This document shows, one piece after another, positions 5,853 through 13,264 of a stretch of 54,836 nt of DNA; the first letter of the stretch is position 1; each line of letters opens with the position of its first letter. The notes under the pieces were generated by a model. The model did no database searches, had not been told where the DNA came from, and was given only the letters and a program-made list of their open reading frames with translations. The stretch covers positions 13,781 through 68,616 of the forward strand of contig JALHNB010000036.1 of assembly GCA_022843745.1 (NCBI GenBank), given 5' to 3'. The position numbers and the translations under genes are program-made. This DNA comes from Anaerolineae bacterium (lineage in GTDB: Bacteria > Chloroflexota > Anaerolineae > Aggregatilineales > Phototrophicaceae).

Positions 5853-6923
5853 ATGCAGAAATATCGGAATCGAATTATCGCAGGATTCGCGATTGGTTTC
5901 GTGATTTACGTGGTGCTTTTGCTCTTTGTAAATACGGACGATTTGCTTCAGCAGTTAAAGATTTACCCCTGGGAACTCTTCATTCCGGTCATTCTGCTCA
6001 AATTTGTAGCCTGGTTTTGCCGTTTTATTCAGTGGCATTACTTTTTGGGCGTGATCGATGCCAACGATAAAATCAGCCGTTTCGACAGCACCGTCCTGTT
6101 TATTTCCGGCTTTTCGATGGCCGTCAGCCCCGGCAAAATCGCCGAAATGCTCAAAGCGGTTGTGTTAAAAACAAAGACGGGCATTCCAATTGCGAAAAGT
6201 GCCCCGGTGATTATCGCTGAGCGTGTCGTGGATGGGATCGCGGTGCTGCTGCTGTCATTTATCGCTATTCTGATCGCTGGAGACAATATTCAGCTTGGCG
6301 AAGAATACCGATTTATGATTATTCTCTCGTCGGTGCTGCTGCTGGTTGGCCTGGTCGCTGTGCAGCTTCGCCCAGTGGCCTACTTTTTCCTGAACATGAT
6401 TGCTCGCCTGCCACTCGTCAAACGCCTGCACGAACCGTTAGTCACGTTTTATGAGAGCAGCAACGAAATGTTTAAGCTCAAGCACATTATCATCCCCACG
6501 TTGTTCGGCATGGTCGCTGCTGTGGGGGATGTGATCGGCTTTATGATTATACTGACCGGCTTTGGCATTGAGATGAACGCGACACTATTTCTGCAAACGA
6601 CAGTGATCGTCTGTCTGGCATCGGCAATTGGCGCATTAAGTGGTGTACCCAACGGCGCAGGTGTCACCGAAATTTCGGTTGGTGCGATGCTCATGGCGAT
6701 TGTCGCGCCGACAAACCCGGTGATGACGCTGCCAGTGGCGACGACAGCGGCACTTGTGGAAGGATTTTTTCACAAATGGTTCCGCGTATTTGTGGGATTG
6801 GGTGTTGGCGTGATTTTCCGCAAACGCCTGATTTCGCCAGAAGTTGAAACGACGATTGCTGAGATGGAAGCAGAACGTGCTCAAAAACGAGCCGGACTCA
6901 CTGTGGAGACGGGAAACGCATGA
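5853..6923 (+). CDS. Flippase-like membrane protein (LPG synthase TM / UPF0104 family)
   Basis: A 356-residue protein with about eight hydrophobic segments, including a GKIAEMLKAVVLKTKTG loop typical of the UPF0104/AglD-type membrane domain. The catalytic half of lysylphosphatidylglycerol synthase is absent. Members of the family move or modify lipid-linked groups; the cargo is unknown. The last four bases overlap the PHP gene, so the two are coupled. The start is the first ATG after the tandem repeats. Confidence 0.85.
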   Translation: MQKYRNRIIAGFAIGFVIYVVLLLFVNTDDLLQQLKIYPWELFIPVILLKFVAWFCRFIQWHYFLGVIDANDKISRFDSTVLFISGFSMAVSPGKIAEMLKAVVLKTKTGIPIAKSAPVIIAERVVDGIAVLLLSFIAILIAGDNIQLGEEYRFMIILSSVLLLVGLVAVQLRPVAYFFLNMIARLPLVKRLHEPLVTFYESSNEMFKLKHIIIPTLFGMVAAVGDVIGFMIILTGFGIEMNATLFLQTTVIVCLASAIGALSGVPNGAGVTEISVGAMLMAIVAPTNPVMTLPVATTAALVEGFFHKWFRVFVGLGVGVIFRKRLISPEVETTIAEMEAERAQKRAGLTVETGNA

Positions 6924-7606
6924 CCGACACATGGAATGTCGATTTACATAGCCATACACTTTGGTCGAAAGATTGCCTGACGGAATTTAATACGATTCTG
7001 CGCCTGTGCGATCAACGCGGCATTGATCGAATCGCGATCACCGATCACAACACCGCTGAAGGTGCGCTGGCGTTGCAAAAACTCGCGCCGGGGCGCGTGA
7101 TCGTGGGCGAAGAAATTATGACCACTCAGGGCGAAATTCTGGCCTATTTTGTGCGCGAAAGTGTTCCCGCTGGACTGACACCGGAAGAGACGATTCGCCG
7201 CCTCCGCGAACAGGGTGCGGTTATCAGCGTGTCCCATCCCTTTGACCGACTGCGCAAAGGGGCATGGCGCGAAGAAGATTTACTAAAAATTGTGGACAAA
7301 ATTGACGCAATTGAAATTTATAATGCCCGCTGCATCGTGAACAGTGACAACGACAAGGCGATTGCATTCGCCAAAAAACACAGCTTGATCGGAACGGTAG
7401 GGTCAGACGCACACACACGCCCGGAATATGGTCGATCAATGGTCAAAATGCGCCCTTTTACCGATGACCCGGAAGATTTTCTCGATGCGCTGCAAGAGGC
7501 CAGCTATATCATGCGCCTCAGCCCCATTTACGTTCACTTGGGCAGCAAAGCCGCGAAATGGTCGAAAAAGTTAGGGCTTAAGCCGCGCTTATGGGCAGGT
7601 GGCTAA
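6920..7606 (+). CDS. PHP domain phosphoesterase
   Basis: A 228-residue PHP-domain protein. Visible motifs are DLHSHT (metal-binding HxH, residues 8-13), ITDHNT, GEEIMT, SHPFD and GSDAHT, in the expected order. PHP proteins use a trinuclear metal site to cleave phosphoesters such as small nucleotides or histidinol phosphate. Length fits the stand-alone YciV-like branch but lacks anything that fixes the substrate. Its stop overlaps the stop of the convergent PBP gene in the bases CTAA. Confidence 0.85.
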   Translation: MTDTWNVDLHSHTLWSKDCLTEFNTILRLCDQRGIDRIAITDHNTAEGALALQKLAPGRVIVGEEIMTTQGEILAYFVRESVPAGLTPEETIRRLREQGAVISVSHPFDRLRKGAWREEDLLKIVDKIDAIEIYNARCIVNSDNDKAIAFAKKHSLIGTVGSDAHTRPEYGRSMVKMRPFTDDPEDFLDALQEASYIMRLSPIYVHLGSKAAKWSKKLGLKPRLWAGG

Positions 7607-9012
7607 TTCTGCCGTAACGCCTCGTGGGCTGCCGCCAGCACTGTGCCGCCGATGTCTGCCGCGAGGCCGGGATCGTTGCTGTTTTCCAGCACCACCGCGA
7701 CTGAAATCGCCTGCCGACCCGCAATTGTCGCGAAGCCAACAAACCACGCCTGCGTTTCATCCCCTGAATAGGCAATCGTGGCATGACCACCAATGTCAAT
7801 ATTGGGACGCGCTGCGTTAAAAGCCGCGCCATTGGCAACCGCGCTGCGCATGAGGTCTTGAAGCTGCCGCGCGGTGTTAGCATTGGCGTAGGGGATCGTT
7901 GGGCGGATAGCCTCCACTGGAATCCAGGCATCCGATTCCGCTGCGCGTGTTGCCGCCAGTGTATAGGGCTGCGGTGCATTACCATCGTTGATAATCGCTG
8001 CCGCCATGACCGCCATTTGCAACGGCGTGACCGTCAGATTGCCCTGCCCAAGCGCATTTTCAACGAGATTATCGGTAGTGATGAGCGGAAAAGAAGTGAC
8101 AGAGGCTCCCGTCGCCGGCTGTGGAACAAAGCCCTCAAGGCTAGGTGGGCGATTGAGTTGAAAAGTGACGAACGTATCCTGAATCTTTTCTCTGTCCAGT
8201 GTTTCTGCCAACTCCTCGAATGGTTTTGGACAGGCAAAAGCATAAGCATCACGCAGCGTTAAGGCCATCTCCGGCAGGCGTACTGCACAAGACACATCGA
8301 CATTTGCTAGCTGAACGGTATCTGTCGCATTCTCAATCACCGTTTCGAGCGGCTGCCTGTTCAGCAATGCCGCCGCCATCAACAGGGTTTGTAATGTGCC
8401 GCCGGGTTGGTAATTGGCTTGGAGAGCACGGTTGAAAAAGGGCTTCCCTGGCGCTTCGATCAGCATTTCCCAATCGGCATCCAGCGTGTTTGGGTTGTAG
8501 GTCGGCAGGCTGACGAGTCCTAATATCTCCCCGTTTGGCACACCCATAACAACGACAGCGCCCACACGCCCATTCAGTGCCTGGGCGATTTGCTGTTGAA
8601 TGCCCAGATCAAGCGTCAATTTGATGTCTGTGCCAACTTGAGGCCGATGGAGAAGCTGGGTGGTGAAATCACGATTGTCGCCCCGCAGGATGCTGTTATA
8701 AGCTGCCTCCGCGCCTCCTGTGCCATAGCGCAGACTGTAATAACCGAGCGCACTGCTGGTTTCGGGATACTCATAATTTCGGCTTACGCTTCCGTCTTCC
8801 CCTATTGTGGATGTTGCCAGGAGATGATCGGCGCGATCCACAATATCACCCCGCAGAATAGCGGCTTCAGCCTCGAACAGGCGCGGGTTATCCTCACGCG
8901 TGAGTATTGTATCTATGCCGAAAATTGCCCAATATGCTGCGGCCAGCGCGACAATGGCAAATCCTGCCAGCACACCAAGCAGAAGACGGTTGATTTCGCG
9001 AGTCGAGCGCAT
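7603..9012 (-). CDS. PbpA-like class B PBP with degenerate catalytic motifs
   Basis: A 469-residue protein with one N-terminal transmembrane helix and the short PbpA layout of actinobacteria. The flanks of all three penicillin-binding motifs align well, but the motifs themselves are lost. PGSTFK is PGGTLQ (Ser to Gly205, Lys to Gln208). SCN is ACP (residues 260-262). KTG is HAT (residues 410-412), although QAWFVGFA follows as expected. It should therefore lack transpeptidase activity and bind no beta-lactam, perhaps serving as a scaffold for the SEDS polymerase encoded just upstream. I chose the ATG at 9012 (GAGG nine bases before, four bases after the SEDS stop) over an upstream in-frame start at 9054. 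Confidence 0.88.
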   Translation of the reverse strand: MRSTREINRLLLGVLAGFAIVALAAAYWAIFGIDTILTREDNPRLFEAEAAILRGDIVDRADHLLATSTIGEDGSVSRNYEYPETSSALGYYSLRYGTGGAEAAYNSILRGDNRDFTTQLLHRPQVGTDIKLTLDLGIQQQIAQALNGRVGAVVVMGVPNGEILGLVSLPTYNPNTLDADWEMLIEAPGKPFFNRALQANYQPGGTLQTLLMAAALLNRQPLETVIENATDTVQLANVDVSCAVRLPEMALTLRDAYAFACPKPFEELAETLDREKIQDTFVTFQLNRPPSLEGFVPQPATGASVTSFPLITTDNLVENALGQGNLTVTPLQMAVMAAAIINDGNAPQPYTLAATRAAESDAWIPVEAIRPTIPYANANTARQLQDLMRSAVANGAAFNAARPNIDIGGHATIAYSGDETQAWFVGFATIAGRQAISVAVVLENSNDPGLAADIGGTVLAAAHEALRQN

Positions 9013-9016
9013 CGGC

Positions 9017-10321
9017 TCAATCCTCACTTGCTGAAAGGCGCAGCAGCAAGCCAATAATGATAAAACTGATGAGGAGCGAACTGCCGCCGTAGCTTAAAAA
9101 CGGAAGTGTGACCCCGGTGAGTGGAATCACCTTGAGGACACCTGCCATAATCATCAGGCTTTGAACGGCAATTAACATGCTCAAGCCTGCTGCCAGCAGG
9201 GATAAAAAGGACTGTGGCCGCTGTGAAATGGCGATTCGCAATCCGCGAGTGACGATGACCGCAATGCAAGTGATGACGACGATGATGCCCAGCAAGCCCC
9301 ATTCCTCCGCAATCGCTGCGAAGATAAAATCGGAGTGGGTCACGGGGATATACCCCGGCGACCCCTGTCCAATTCCCTGACCAAAGATGCCACCTGCCGC
9401 GAATGCCAGCAAACTCTGTACGATCTGGAACGCGCGTCCATCTGCTTCCGGCCAGGGATTCAGCCAGATGTCCACGCGCAGTTCGACAACCGCGAATAAC
9501 TTGTAGGCGACAACACCTGCTATGAGAATGAGCGCTGCACCGCTGGCAAGAATAAAAGTCGAGCCGCTGGCGACATAGAGCAGCACCAGAAAGACGATAA
9601 AAAATAAGATCGCTGTTCCCAGATCGCGCTGCCACACCAGAATGACGACAGACATACCCCACATGAGCAAAATCGGCCCGTAGATTCGCGGCGAAACATT
9701 CAGAAATCGTCGCCCGCCACTCATTTCCTCGGCACGAAGCGCGGGATATTGTTCAGCGAGATAGCTTGCCAGAAACGCGACCAGAATAATCTTGAGTGCC
9801 TCGGACGGCTGAAAAAAGACGGAGCCGATTCCTAGCCATAACTGCGGTGCGTCTGCAAAACCAGAGGGGTTGCGCCCAAGAATGATTGTACCGACGAGCA
9901 GCACCAGGCCGATCATCAGCAGGATATAACGGTAATTACGCAACCAGCGCAAGGGGTGAGGGAAACCTGCGACGAGCATCATAACCCCCACAGAGATGAC
10001 TAACCAGACGGTCTGGCGATCCGCAAATGGCTGTGTGAGTCGGTTTATCAGCAGCAAACCCCATCCGCTGAGGAACATCGCGATTGGGAATAACAGCATA
10101 TCACGCCGGGGTAAACGTCGTTCCAACCACCATTGACCTGCGGCAGCGCAAACGACCCATACCACCAATTGCAGCGCATCGGTAATGCCAAATCCTGACC
10201 GGATGAACGCCAACGCGAAAAAATTGACCAGCAGAAATACACCTGCCAGGAGGAGCAGAATTCGCTCGACATTCAGAAATGATTTTTTTTCGTTGGTTTC
10301 AGGCGCGGTGATGGCAGTCAC
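9017..10321 (-). CDS. rodA: SEDS peptidoglycan polymerase, RodA/FtsW family
   Basis: A 434-residue polytopic protein with family landmarks: QPSEALKIILVAFLASYLAE (residues 171-190), WQRDLGTAILFF, the THSDFIFAAIAEEWG loop with the catalytic-type Asp331, and a C-terminal FLSYGGSSLL. It should polymerise lipid II into glycan strands together with a class B PBP. The catalytic features look intact, unlike its PBP neighbour. The start is a GTG seven bases after mtnP, with only a weak ribosome site. RodA and FtsW are hard to tell apart; the PbpA-like partner and FHA neighbours favour a RodA type. Confidence 0.9.
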   Translation of the reverse strand: MTAITAPETNEKKSFLNVERILLLLAGVFLLVNFFALAFIRSGFGITDALQLVVWVVCAAAGQWWLERRLPRRDMLLFPIAMFLSGWGLLLINRLTQPFADRQTVWLVISVGVMMLVAGFPHPLRWLRNYRYILLMIGLVLLVGTIILGRNPSGFADAPQLWLGIGSVFFQPSEALKIILVAFLASYLAEQYPALRAEEMSGGRRFLNVSPRIYGPILLMWGMSVVILVWQRDLGTAILFFIVFLVLLYVASGSTFILASGAALILIAGVVAYKLFAVVELRVDIWLNPWPEADGRAFQIVQSLLAFAAGGIFGQGIGQGSPGYIPVTHSDFIFAAIAEEWGLLGIIVVITCIAVIVTRGLRIAISQRPQSFLSLLAAGLSMLIAVQSLMIMAGVLKVIPLTGVTLPFLSYGGSSLLISFIIIGLLLRLSASED

Positions 10322-10327
10322 GGTGTG

Positions 10328-11203
10328 CTATTTCAATCCCAATGACCGCTGGACGATGGGTTGCAGCTTGCTGATCGCTGCGGACGCGAGTTGTTCGGGA
10401 TGCGTCATCACGGCATTGTCGAGCGCAGTATGGCAGGCATAACTGGCGCTGGTATCCAGATTTTCAACAGCTTGGGCGATGGCGTTTTGAGCGATTTTCA
10501 GATTGCGATTCATGGTCGCGACCACGACATCAACCGTGACAGGTTCTTCGCTGGTGTGCCACACATCATAGTCGGTAATGTGCGCCATCGTCGCGTAGGC
10601 GATTTCGGCTTCACGTGCGAGAAACGCTTCCGGACAGGTGGTCATGCCGATGATGCTGCATCCCCATTGGCGGAAAATCTGGCTTTCGCCTTTGGTGCTG
10701 AAGCGCGGCCCTTCGATGATGACGAAATTGCCGCCTTTGTGAACCGTGCCCCCCACAGTTGCCACTGAATCGACGAGCAGATCGCTTAATTCCGGGCAGA
10801 ACGGGTCCGCTACCGAAACGTGCGCGACCAATCCCTGCTCAAAAAAGGTGCGGCCCCGGTCTGCTTTCGTGTTGTCGTAAAGCTGGTCGGGAATGCAGAT
10901 ATGACCCGGCGCGTAATCTTCACGCAGCGAACCGCAGGCGTTCACGGCGATAATAAATTTGACTTTGAGCGATTTGAGCGCATAAATATTGGCGCGATAA
11001 GGGACAGTGGTCGGCGTGTAAACGTGGCCGATACCATGACGTGGAAGGAAGGCGACGCGCTTGCCGCGCAGCGTCCCGATCACAATCGCCGCGCTGGGTG
11101 CGCCAAATGGTGTATCGACAGTAACCACGCTCTTGTCGGTGATCTCCGGCATACTATAGAGGCCAGAGCCACCAATCACGGCGATTTCGACATTTTCAGT
11201 CAT
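10328..11203 (-). CDS. mtnP: S-methyl-5'-thioadenosine phosphorylase
   Basis: A 291-residue PNP/MTAP-family protein. It has the GGSGLY phosphate loop near residue 11, TVPYRANIYALKSL, NACGSL, and the MTTCPEAFLAREAEIAYATM...TDYDVW stretch typical of MTAP. The enzyme splits methylthioadenosine into adenine and methylthioribose 1-phosphate, which MtnA (at 50844) would isomerise. The gene lies inside a cell-wall operon, with seven bases to the SEDS gene, and its AAGGA ribosome site is the end of a repeat element in the short gap after the SDR gene. Confidence 0.92.
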   Translation of the reverse strand: MTENVEIAVIGGSGLYSMPEITDKSVVTVDTPFGAPSAAIVIGTLRGKRVAFLPRHGIGHVYTPTTVPYRANIYALKSLKVKFIIAVNACGSLREDYAPGHICIPDQLYDNTKADRGRTFFEQGLVAHVSVADPFCPELSDLLVDSVATVGGTVHKGGNFVIIEGPRFSTKGESQIFRQWGCSIIGMTTCPEAFLAREAEIAYATMAHITDYDVWHTSEEPVTVDVVVATMNRNLKIAQNAIAQAVENLDTSASYACHTALDNAVMTHPEQLASAAISKLQPIVQRSLGLK

Positions 11204-12041: not shown

Positions 12042-12485
12042 TTACTGCTCCAATTCCATGCGGTAGCGTGTGTTACCGACCCCGATAATGTCACCGTCGG
12101 TGATGATCGCTGGGCGGTGGATCATCACTTCGTTTAGTGTTGTGCCATTCCGACTCTGACGATCTTCCAGCCACCAATGTCCGTTGCGCAGCGCTACCAT
12201 CGCATGTTCACCGCTGGCAAACGTGTCGTGTATGGGAATGGCGTTGGTGGGGGAGCGCCCCAGGCTGGTGAGCGAGAGCAGAGGATAAGTCGTACCTGTT
12301 TCCAGGTATCTGCCGTCAATTTCCTTCAATTCGATCAATTGACCGTAGATGCGGCGATTCGCCTCAACCCCTGTGACCGCGCTGCGATAATCGCGCCATA
12401 AGATGATAAATAGCGCCAGCAGCACCAGCATGAGGATTATGCCAGAACCAACGCGCAAGAGAAATAGGATCGTTTCGGTAGTCAT
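12042..12485 (-). CDS. FHA domain membrane protein (FhaB-like)
   Basis: A 147-residue protein with one N-terminal transmembrane helix (about 7-30) and a C-terminal FHA domain. The FHA landmarks are SLGRSPTN, SGEHA, and SRNGTTLN in the last half. FHA domains bind phosphothreonine. Size and topology match mycobacterial FhaB, which couples Ser/Thr kinase signals to cell-wall synthesis; its order next to the DUF3662-FHA gene and ahead of the SEDS gene supports this. No kinase or PP2C phosphatase gene lies in the window. Confidence 0.88.
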   Translation of the reverse strand: MTTETILFLLRVGSGIILMLVLLALFIILWRDYRSAVTGVEANRRIYGQLIELKEIDGRYLETGTTYPLLSLTSLGRSPTNAIPIHDTFASGEHAMVALRNGHWWLEDRQSRNGTTLNEVMIHRPAIITDGDIIGVGNTRYRMELEQ

Positions 12486-12499
12486 TCAGGCTGGAAATT

Positions 12500-13264
12500 T
12501 CAAAGACTATTCATAGCGCCAGTTTGCGAGTCGTTCGACATATCTTCTTCGACATACAGGATCGAAGTCGTGCCGACACGGATCACATCTCCGGGTTGCA
12601 GGCGATGTTCTTTGATGCGAACCTCATTGACGAAAGTTCCCCCCTGACTGTCGGCATCAAAAATCGTGTAGTAGCCGAAACGCAGCCGAATCTGAGCGTG
12701 ATGGCGTGAGGTACGCAGGTCATCAATAATGAGGTGATTATCGTGACTCCGGCCTATATTGATGATCGACTGCTCCAGGTCGTACACTTTCTCGCCTCTG
12801 ACGATAAGCTGTGCATGAGACGGGATAGGGTGATTGTCCTCTTTGCGAACAGGTTTCAGAACCTGAGTCGTATTGTGCTTTTGGGTCATGTGGTCGGCTT
12901 TGATGACGAATTGCCCGTCTGCCAGGCTGGTATCAGCGACAAATAATACGACGGGCGCATTATTCAGATGATAGCCTACACTGGCCGCCAGTTCGATGAT
13001 TTGTTCGCTTAACACCTCAGTTAACGATGGATAACGGCGTTGGATGTGGTTTTGCGCAGTTGGATGAACGCGGATCACATAGCGATCCGGCGCAGTCAAA
13101 CGTGAATCAGCATCGTGCGCCGATTCAAGACTGTCTTCCATTGAGCGAGCGATTTGGAGAGCAATATCGCGTGCGCTGACGCGCTTGCCAAAGAGATTGG
13201 CGAATATGCCCTCAACCATTTTTTCGAGGCGTGCCTCTAGTCGTGCAATCTGTTGATCGTTCAT
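12500..13264 (-). CDS. FhaA-like protein, DUF3662 plus FHA domain
   Basis: A 254-residue cytoplasmic protein. Residues 1-115 match the DUF3662/FhaA N-terminal domain (LEARLEKMVEGIFANLFGKR at the start). Residues 165-240 are an FHA domain with NIGRSHDN, SRHHAQI and GGTFVNE. In mycobacteria FhaA binds the pseudokinase/MurJ complex and controls wall synthesis; murJ also lies in this window. A promoter ends eight bases before the ATG and no ribosome site is visible, so the mRNA is probably leaderless. It is the first gene of the run that ends with the PBP. Confidence 0.9.
   Translation of the reverse strand: MNDQQIARLEARLEKMVEGIFANLFGKRVSARDIALQIARSMEDSLESAHDADSRLTAPDRYVIRVHPTAQNHIQRRYPSLTEVLSEQIIELAASVGYHLNNAPVVLFVADTSLADGQFVIKADHMTQKHNTTQVLKPVRKEDNHPIPSHAQLIVRGEKVYDLEQSIINIGRSHDNHLIIDDLRTSRHHAQIRLRFGYYTIFDADSQGGTFVNEVRIKEHRLQPGDVIRVGTTSILYVEEDMSNDSQTGAMNSL

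Follow-up and report, generated by a model that had tools for sequence, protein, structure and literature searches.

A class B PBP encoded beside a SEDS gene in an Anaerolineae (Chloroflexota) bacterium has lost all three motifs of its transpeptidase active site, a natural loss that is common to many families of its class. On comparative evidence, it is likely that this PBP is a fixed pseudo-transpeptidase, which is kept as a docking and activating partner of the SEDS protein, with cross-linking performed in trans by intact PBPs. Both the activation and the lack of penicillin binding are inferred. The features discussed are listed below in the coordinates of the window, i.e., the whole stretch of 54,836 nucleotides that was analysed.

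7603..9012, (-) strand: pseudo-transpeptidase, PbpA-type class B PBP; 469 aa, 3 of 3 catalytic motifs lost
8638..9012, (-) strand: PBP residues 1-125 (membrane helix, RxDNPR segment and pedestal)
8400-8389, (-) strand: SxxK position, which reads GTLQ (residues 205-208; codons GGC ACA TTA CAA)
8235-8227, (-) strand: SxN position, which reads ACP (residues 260-262; codons GCC TGT CCA)
7785-7777, (-) strand: KTG position, which reads HAT (residues 410-412; codons CAT GCC ACG)
10321-9017, (-) strand: putative SEDS polymerase of the FtsW/RodA type, cognate partner (Pfam FTSW_RODA_SPOVE, 1.9e-75)
9329..9331, (-) strand: codon of SEDS Asp331, in an HSD motif (H[ST]D)
10328..11203, (-) strand: phosphorylase, conserved neighbour (Pfam PF01048, PNP_UDP_1, 6e-42)
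12042..12485, (-) strand: FHA protein, FhaB-like (Pfam FHA, 1.1e-14)
12500..13264, (-) strand: FHA protein, FhaA-like (Pfam FhaA_N, 1.2e-22; FHA, 1.3e-17)

Results

The PBP keeps the PbpA fold and lacks the catalytic motifs

The PBP frame (9012-7603, (-) strand) is open, and its ATG lies four bases past the SEDS stop codon; an alternative TTG start at 9054 would make it overlap with the SEDS gene. Pfam recognized a Transpeptidase domain (1.5e-26, residues 151-446) and the pedestal domain of PbpA-type class B PBPs, PBP_dimer_2 (1.3e-8, residues 54-119). When the protein was compared with solved structures by phmmer, the top matches were six PbpA-type entries, including Mycobacterium tuberculosis (Mtb) PbpA. 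The AlphaFold2 model, built from 26 sequences, had a mean pLDDT of 89.9 and a pTM of 0.86, and its best fold match was Mtb PbpA (3lo7; Z 45.1, rmsd 2.2 Å over 389 aligned residues, 30% identity), with the following rows no more than 1 Z unit behind. A PHROGs search with the PBP gave no match. The transpeptidase fold, the pedestal and the N-terminal helix are thus all present (Pfam, AlphaFold2, fold search), but the protein fails the SxxK Ser/Lys, SxN and KTG criteria of a PbpA-type class B PBP. Residues 1-125 correspond to the part that faces the SEDS protein in known complexes. Without the catalytic serine, covalent penicillin binding is not expected; this is inferred from the sequence alone, and there are no binding data.

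The initial annotation had claimed the GTLQ, ACP and HAT replacements, had assigned the protein to PbpA by eye, and had argued that it is neither frameshifted nor a pseudogene. All three claims held: the codons were read directly, Pfam, phmmer and the predicted fold agree on PbpA, and the open frame carries the same losses as its homologues.

A gene at 6920-7606 on the (+) strand, which we take to encode a PHP-domain-like protein, is convergent with the PBP gene and overlaps its end by four bases. Opposite-strand matches to it were found in 21 of 56 named loci.

The SEDS partner is intact and the neighbourhood is conserved

The SEDS protein keeps Asp331 within its HSD motif, as the initial annotation had stated. 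This residue, which we take to be the catalytic-type Asp of SEDS proteins, is conserved as Asp in 174 of 175 loci, the remaining one having X. From the domain and the Asp we infer that the protein is a lipid II polymerase, in the absence of polymerisation data. The PBP is either fused to the SEDS protein or encoded on the same strand no more than 250 bases away in 171 of the 175 loci that have both.

Neighbour counts were taken from the 56 named loci in which 5 kb or more precede the SEDS frame. On the SEDS strand, a FhaA-like gene was present in 53/56, a FhaB-like gene in 53/56, and the phosphorylase, which we take to be MTA-phosphorylase-like, in 55/56; in the 25 rows inspected of the 56, all three were upstream wherever present. 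The FhaB-like protein of the window matched the NCBIfam model FhaB_Rv0019c (4.3e-18) with 65.9 bits, below that model's cut-off of 125. With this reservation, the criterion of having FhaA and FhaB homologues near the SEDS and PBP genes is met at the window. The gene order resembles the actinobacterial fhaA-fhaB-rodA-pbpA region; the PknA, PknB and PstP genes were not searched for.

Catalysis is lost in most of the class genomes examined

Of 298 class genomes searched, 295 gave some match, paralogues included. We examined 105 of these genomes: the 30 loci that this search returned plus 75 fetched ones, chosen from the best matches among the 298. Catalysis was lost in 89, intact in 15, and one case was an artefact, so that the losses which the initial annotation proposed to survey are widespread. 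At the family level, 20 families were lost-only, seven intact-only, and none contained both states. The script tally behind the 89 was 88 lost plus one scored as mixed (L176), a shortened protein with a Lys in the SxxK column and without SxN or KTG, which we counted as lost. Fourteen more genomes in the same score range (E ∼5e-37 to 1e-26), some of which resemble other PBPs, were not included, and matches weaker than the examined range were not covered. The 75 are from 80 stretches that were fetched by place; the other five (L204-L208) hold PBPs with intact motifs and no SEDS match nearby, which were taken for other PBPs and left uncounted.

The artefact, L157 (G006:C189:36110-42742), had looked like a recent second loss, in the genus of the intact L021; its KTG is intact. 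It was dropped as an assembly artefact: a low-complexity insert replaces the SxxK-SxN stretch, and there are 100 N in the locus.

Named relatives were obtained by a SEDS-profile scan of the GTDB collection, from which the best 80 of 170 were kept; the SEDS alignment was used, the PBP alignment having no stretch conserved enough. Together with the first 30 loci, this set gave 107 homologous PBPs, 106 of them readable at the motifs. The SxxK Lys and the SxN Asn were both lost in 104/106 and intact in the other two, and KTG was present in 2/106. The SxN Asn was replaced by Pro in all 104 lost homologues, and the SxxK Ser alone survived in 17 of them. The named loci are titled Chloroflexota or subgroups thereof, except L098 and L057 (Pleurocapsa minor, Bacteroidetes), which are probably mislabelled bins.

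In the 175 loci with both SEDS and PBP, some genomes are counted twice, as numbered and named copies; L005 is the same gene as L009. Seven loci without a SEDS match in their stretch (L143, L150, L151, L159, L160, L175 and L176) are among the 105 genomes and outside the 175, and L071, cut by a contig end, was dropped.

The initial annotation had named three findings that would refute it, the third being demonstrated penicillin binding. As to the first two, the class does contain intact homologues, though our sample has them only in other families, and the independent genomes with the same losses rule out a sequencing error at all three sites.

The SEDS tree points to a single loss of the active site

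As an outgroup for reading the direction of the change, we used 30 PbpA-type loci belonging to other Chloroflexota classes. According to the alignment, SxxK was present in 30/30 of them, and SxN and K[TS]G in 29/29 readable ones. On a SEDS tree rooted with ten of these loci, all lost rows formed one clade (SH-aLRT 90), with the intact L021 branching next to it (99). Only one change between the intact and lost states was needed on this tree of 105 rows, and one on an unrooted tree of 151 rows. Since the outgroup is intact and the lost rows fall in one clade, the loss is a derived state and, as far as present data go, a single event. On the rooted tree, the D,D-transpeptidase active site was thus lost once, anciently, in a large part of the class, and the lost clade of our sample has no intact member.

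The rooted tree was computed by a quick method without bootstrap, and left out two long branches (L194 and L197) and 54 of the 82 unfused representatives of the CP class, which is defined by the Cys-Pro pair at the SxN position. For the unrooted tree, six of the 175 loci (L071 and five short SEDS rows) were excluded, leaving 169 rows, and removal of near-duplicates (>90% SEDS identity) left 151. The fusion state changed seven times on the rooted tree and six times on the 151-row tree, and loss of the SxN Ser column accounted for four changes on the rooted tree; gains cannot be distinguished from reversals in these counts.

The anchor and pedestal remain constrained, and the catalytic half is relaxed

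Regional identities were compared at matched SEDS identity (45-60%) among 21 intact and 2563 lost unfused pairs, which are not independent; L196 was excluded, as were two CP-fused rows cut by a contig end. Identity was 0.45 in intact versus 0.43 in lost unfused pairs for residues 5-125, 0.58 versus 0.49 for residues 126-203, 0.48 versus 0.30 for residues 204-375, and 0.53 versus 0.30 for residues 376-469. In 18 close lost pairs, dN/dS of the N half ranged from 0.08 to 0.31; that of the C half ranged from 0.09 to 0.41 in 17 of them, the other pair being saturated. Within these 17 pairs the C half had the higher value in 12, tied in two and was lower in three, whereas the sole clean intact pair showed the opposite trend (0.13 for the N half, 0.03 for the C half). 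It follows that the gene is kept, with its catalytic half under weaker constraint. The anchor, pedestal and N-terminal lobe are about as constrained as in active relatives; the catalytic half has relaxed, and several lineages later shortened it.

Residues N42, R54, G55 and R78 were kept in 161/161 lost loci, as was G97 (161/161, versus 8/12 intact loci), and W423 in all 159 readable ones. Near the former active site, C242, C261 and P262 were invariant in the 126 CP-class loci, and His occupied the KTG Lys position, 410, in 72/126, the position being otherwise variable. Since C242 and C261 are also found in 7/12 and 8/12 intact relatives, respectively, they look like an old structural pair, and a disulfide at the former SxN site is likely, as far as sequence can tell.

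Fused, cut-down and stub forms followed the loss

In 53 of the 175 loci, SEDS and PBP are encoded in one open frame, with linkers of 3-28 aa. The motifs are lost in all 53, and the transpeptidase domain is dead or shortened. At the SxN Ser column, 32 loci show an alignment gap, and 20 do so at all three motif columns. Past residue 217, uncut intact proteins have 245-258 residues, and the shortest form has 118. A natural fusion (L027, 906 aa) was modelled with a pLDDT of 86.2 and a pTM of 0.75. The model, whose interface was not inspected, is compatible with a defined SEDS-PBP arrangement and does not prove it; a fold search with it returned 50 rows of PBP chains only, and is uninformative on the SEDS part.

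The most reduced form belongs to the window's own family. In L270 (G212:C14:457000-462500, ∼2428-2607) the PBP consists only of a 59-aa ORF, coding for a hydrophobic helix and RDDNPR, with an ATGA overlap with the SEDS stop. The stub ends at a convergent PHP-domain gene, which also borders the window PBP gene. The L270 SEDS gene is diverged and keeps the Asp. Either this PBP has been pared down to its anchor, or the stub is only a remnant; because the SEDS gene has diverged too, decay is possible. In another member of the family (L269, G146:C92:42500-47500) a frameshift near residue 120, be it real or a sequencing error, divides the PBP between two frames, and two drafts of the family (G178 and G191) show only two SEDS proteins each. 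From the split copy and these drafts we deduce that the system is dispensable in places.

The genome encodes other cross-linking enzymes

The source genome (7.96 Mb, 98.6% complete) encodes three SEDS proteins, and the window pair is the third SEDS-PBP pair of this bacterium, in a PbpA-like locus. There are eight transpeptidase-domain proteins in total (nine matches). The other seven have SxxK, SxN or SxD, and KTG, and three of these belong to class A, having a Transgly domain; seven YkuD-domain matches were also found. We infer that the cell has ample cross-linking capacity besides the window pair. The earlier suggestion that cross-linking is done elsewhere is plausible in view of the seven intact transpeptidase-domain proteins and the seven YkuD matches.

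Discussion

We propose that the membrane helix and pedestal of the PBP would dock on the SEDS protein, and that the docked PBP would activate or stabilise glycan polymerisation in the way that PBP2 acts on RodA, but would not cross-link the strand itself. Cross-linking would be provided in trans by the intact class A and class B PBPs of the same cell (or by L,D-transpeptidases). The pair is therefore predicted to be insensitive to beta-lactams as far as its own PBP is concerned. By itself RodA has residual activity, which the PBP2 membrane helix suffices to stimulate (PMC10449877), changes in the PBP2 pedestal activate RodA (PMC6207328), and polymerisation by FtsW/RodA in vitro requires their bPBP (PMC10257715). 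A kept anchor and pedestal, a lost catalytic site and a fused polymerase are likely the trace of an activating partner, with no biochemical datum from the clade. The activator or scaffold reading of the initial annotation is supported indirectly, by fixation in many families, single origin, regional constraint, repeated fusion and cut-down forms; SEDS activation itself is an inference from comparison. Strands left uncross-linked by an inactive PBP2 feed a toxic futile cycle (PMC6207328), and hence the proposal depends on effective cross-linking in trans.

These data leave room for a brake in place of an activator. The dead PBP would then hold the SEDS protein shut until a signal arrives, and its loss would raise polymerisation. 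PBP2 contact at interface II represses RodA until opened (PMC10257715), and therefore the partner could be a brake. In addition, the C half of full-length members is still under purifying selection, which anchor and pedestal alone leave unexplained. However, the SxN segment and much of the C half are gone in 32 loci that keep the gene, and the conserved parts are the anchor and pedestal, to which PMC10449877 and PMC6207328 ascribe activation. We consider a brake unlikely.

A ligand-binding pseudo-enzyme, whose dead pocket would still have stem peptide or nascent glycan as a ligand and would serve to position the strand or to sense substrate, is also improbable. The full-length fold is predicted with high confidence, the C half is under purifying selection and W423 is kept in all readable lost loci, but the SxN segment is cut away in 32 loci, and therefore such a role is not general to the clade.

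A decaying gene, i.e., a remnant carried beside the SEDS gene, would account for the repeated truncations, the split L269 copy, the 59-aa L270 stub and the relaxed catalytic half. It is very unlikely, given that the open frame is maintained in 20 families of the sample, dN/dS is far below 1 in both halves, five N-half residues (N42, R54, G55, R78 and G97) are kept in every lost locus, and the in-frame fusions retain the PBP. A new chemistry, with serine acylation swapped for a reaction via Cys261, Pro262 and His410, could be read into the invariant C242, C261 and P262 and the frequent His of CP-class loci, but we rejected it as very unlikely, because the cysteines are shared with intact relatives, position 410 varies and 32 loci retain the gene without this segment.

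The activating-partner reading can be taken further. In a bolder version, the clade would have uncoupled SEDS polymerisation from transpeptidation: the third SEDS machine would be an activation-only pair or a single fused protein making uncross-linked or trans-cross-linked glycan, beta-lactam-proof at its own partner, and the partner would be shrinking towards an anchor and pedestal sufficient for activation. On balance, we lean slightly against this version.

What a SEDS protein needs from its class B PBP beyond cross-linking has so far been approached, in the literature searched, by laboratory mutants and truncations. Here evolution made that separation: catalysis was removed, and the partner was kept, fused in several lineages and pared back. 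The full-length dead, fused dead, core-cut fused and anchor-stub forms are natural constructs for testing the parts of the partner, and a SEDS machine with a beta-lactam-insensitive partner of its own is predicted. In these bacteria, moreover, a count of PBP-domain proteins overestimates the number of transpeptidases.

Among known systems, Mtb PbpA shares the fold and the PBP_dimer_2 pedestal of the window PBP. Mtb PbpA adjoins rodA and FHA genes. Unlike the window PBP, it forms acyl-enzymes with beta-lactams (3upn, 3upo, 3upp), and unlike at its locus, the phosphorylase and an SDR gene lie between the FHA and SEDS genes at the window. The RodA-PBP2 complexes of E. coli and T. thermophilus also pair a SEDS protein with a class B PBP, which controls the polymerase via its membrane helix and pedestal (PMC10449877, PMC6207328, PMC10257715), but their PBP2 has transpeptidase activity. 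A B. subtilis PBP 2B without catalysis (S309A) supports division, with PBP 3 supplying catalysis (PMC5656894), and in S. aureus PBP1 the loss of catalysis (PBP1*) and the loss of the protein differ in phenotype, both being essential (PMC9426605). These cases, like ours, point to a role of class B PBPs beyond catalysis. They are laboratory-made, whereas the loss described here is natural, and in S. aureus PBP1, unlike in the window PBP, the activity itself is essential. Natural SEDS-PBP fusions in a single ORF have been reported without mention of lost catalysis (PMC10449877); the dead or shortened transpeptidase domains of all 53 fused loci go beyond that statement. A full-text search of the open-licence literature returned no account of a pseudo-transpeptidase that occurs naturally, throughout a clade, next to a SEDS protein. 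The component parts of the system are of known kinds, and what is new is a pseudo-transpeptidase that is both fixed and eroding.
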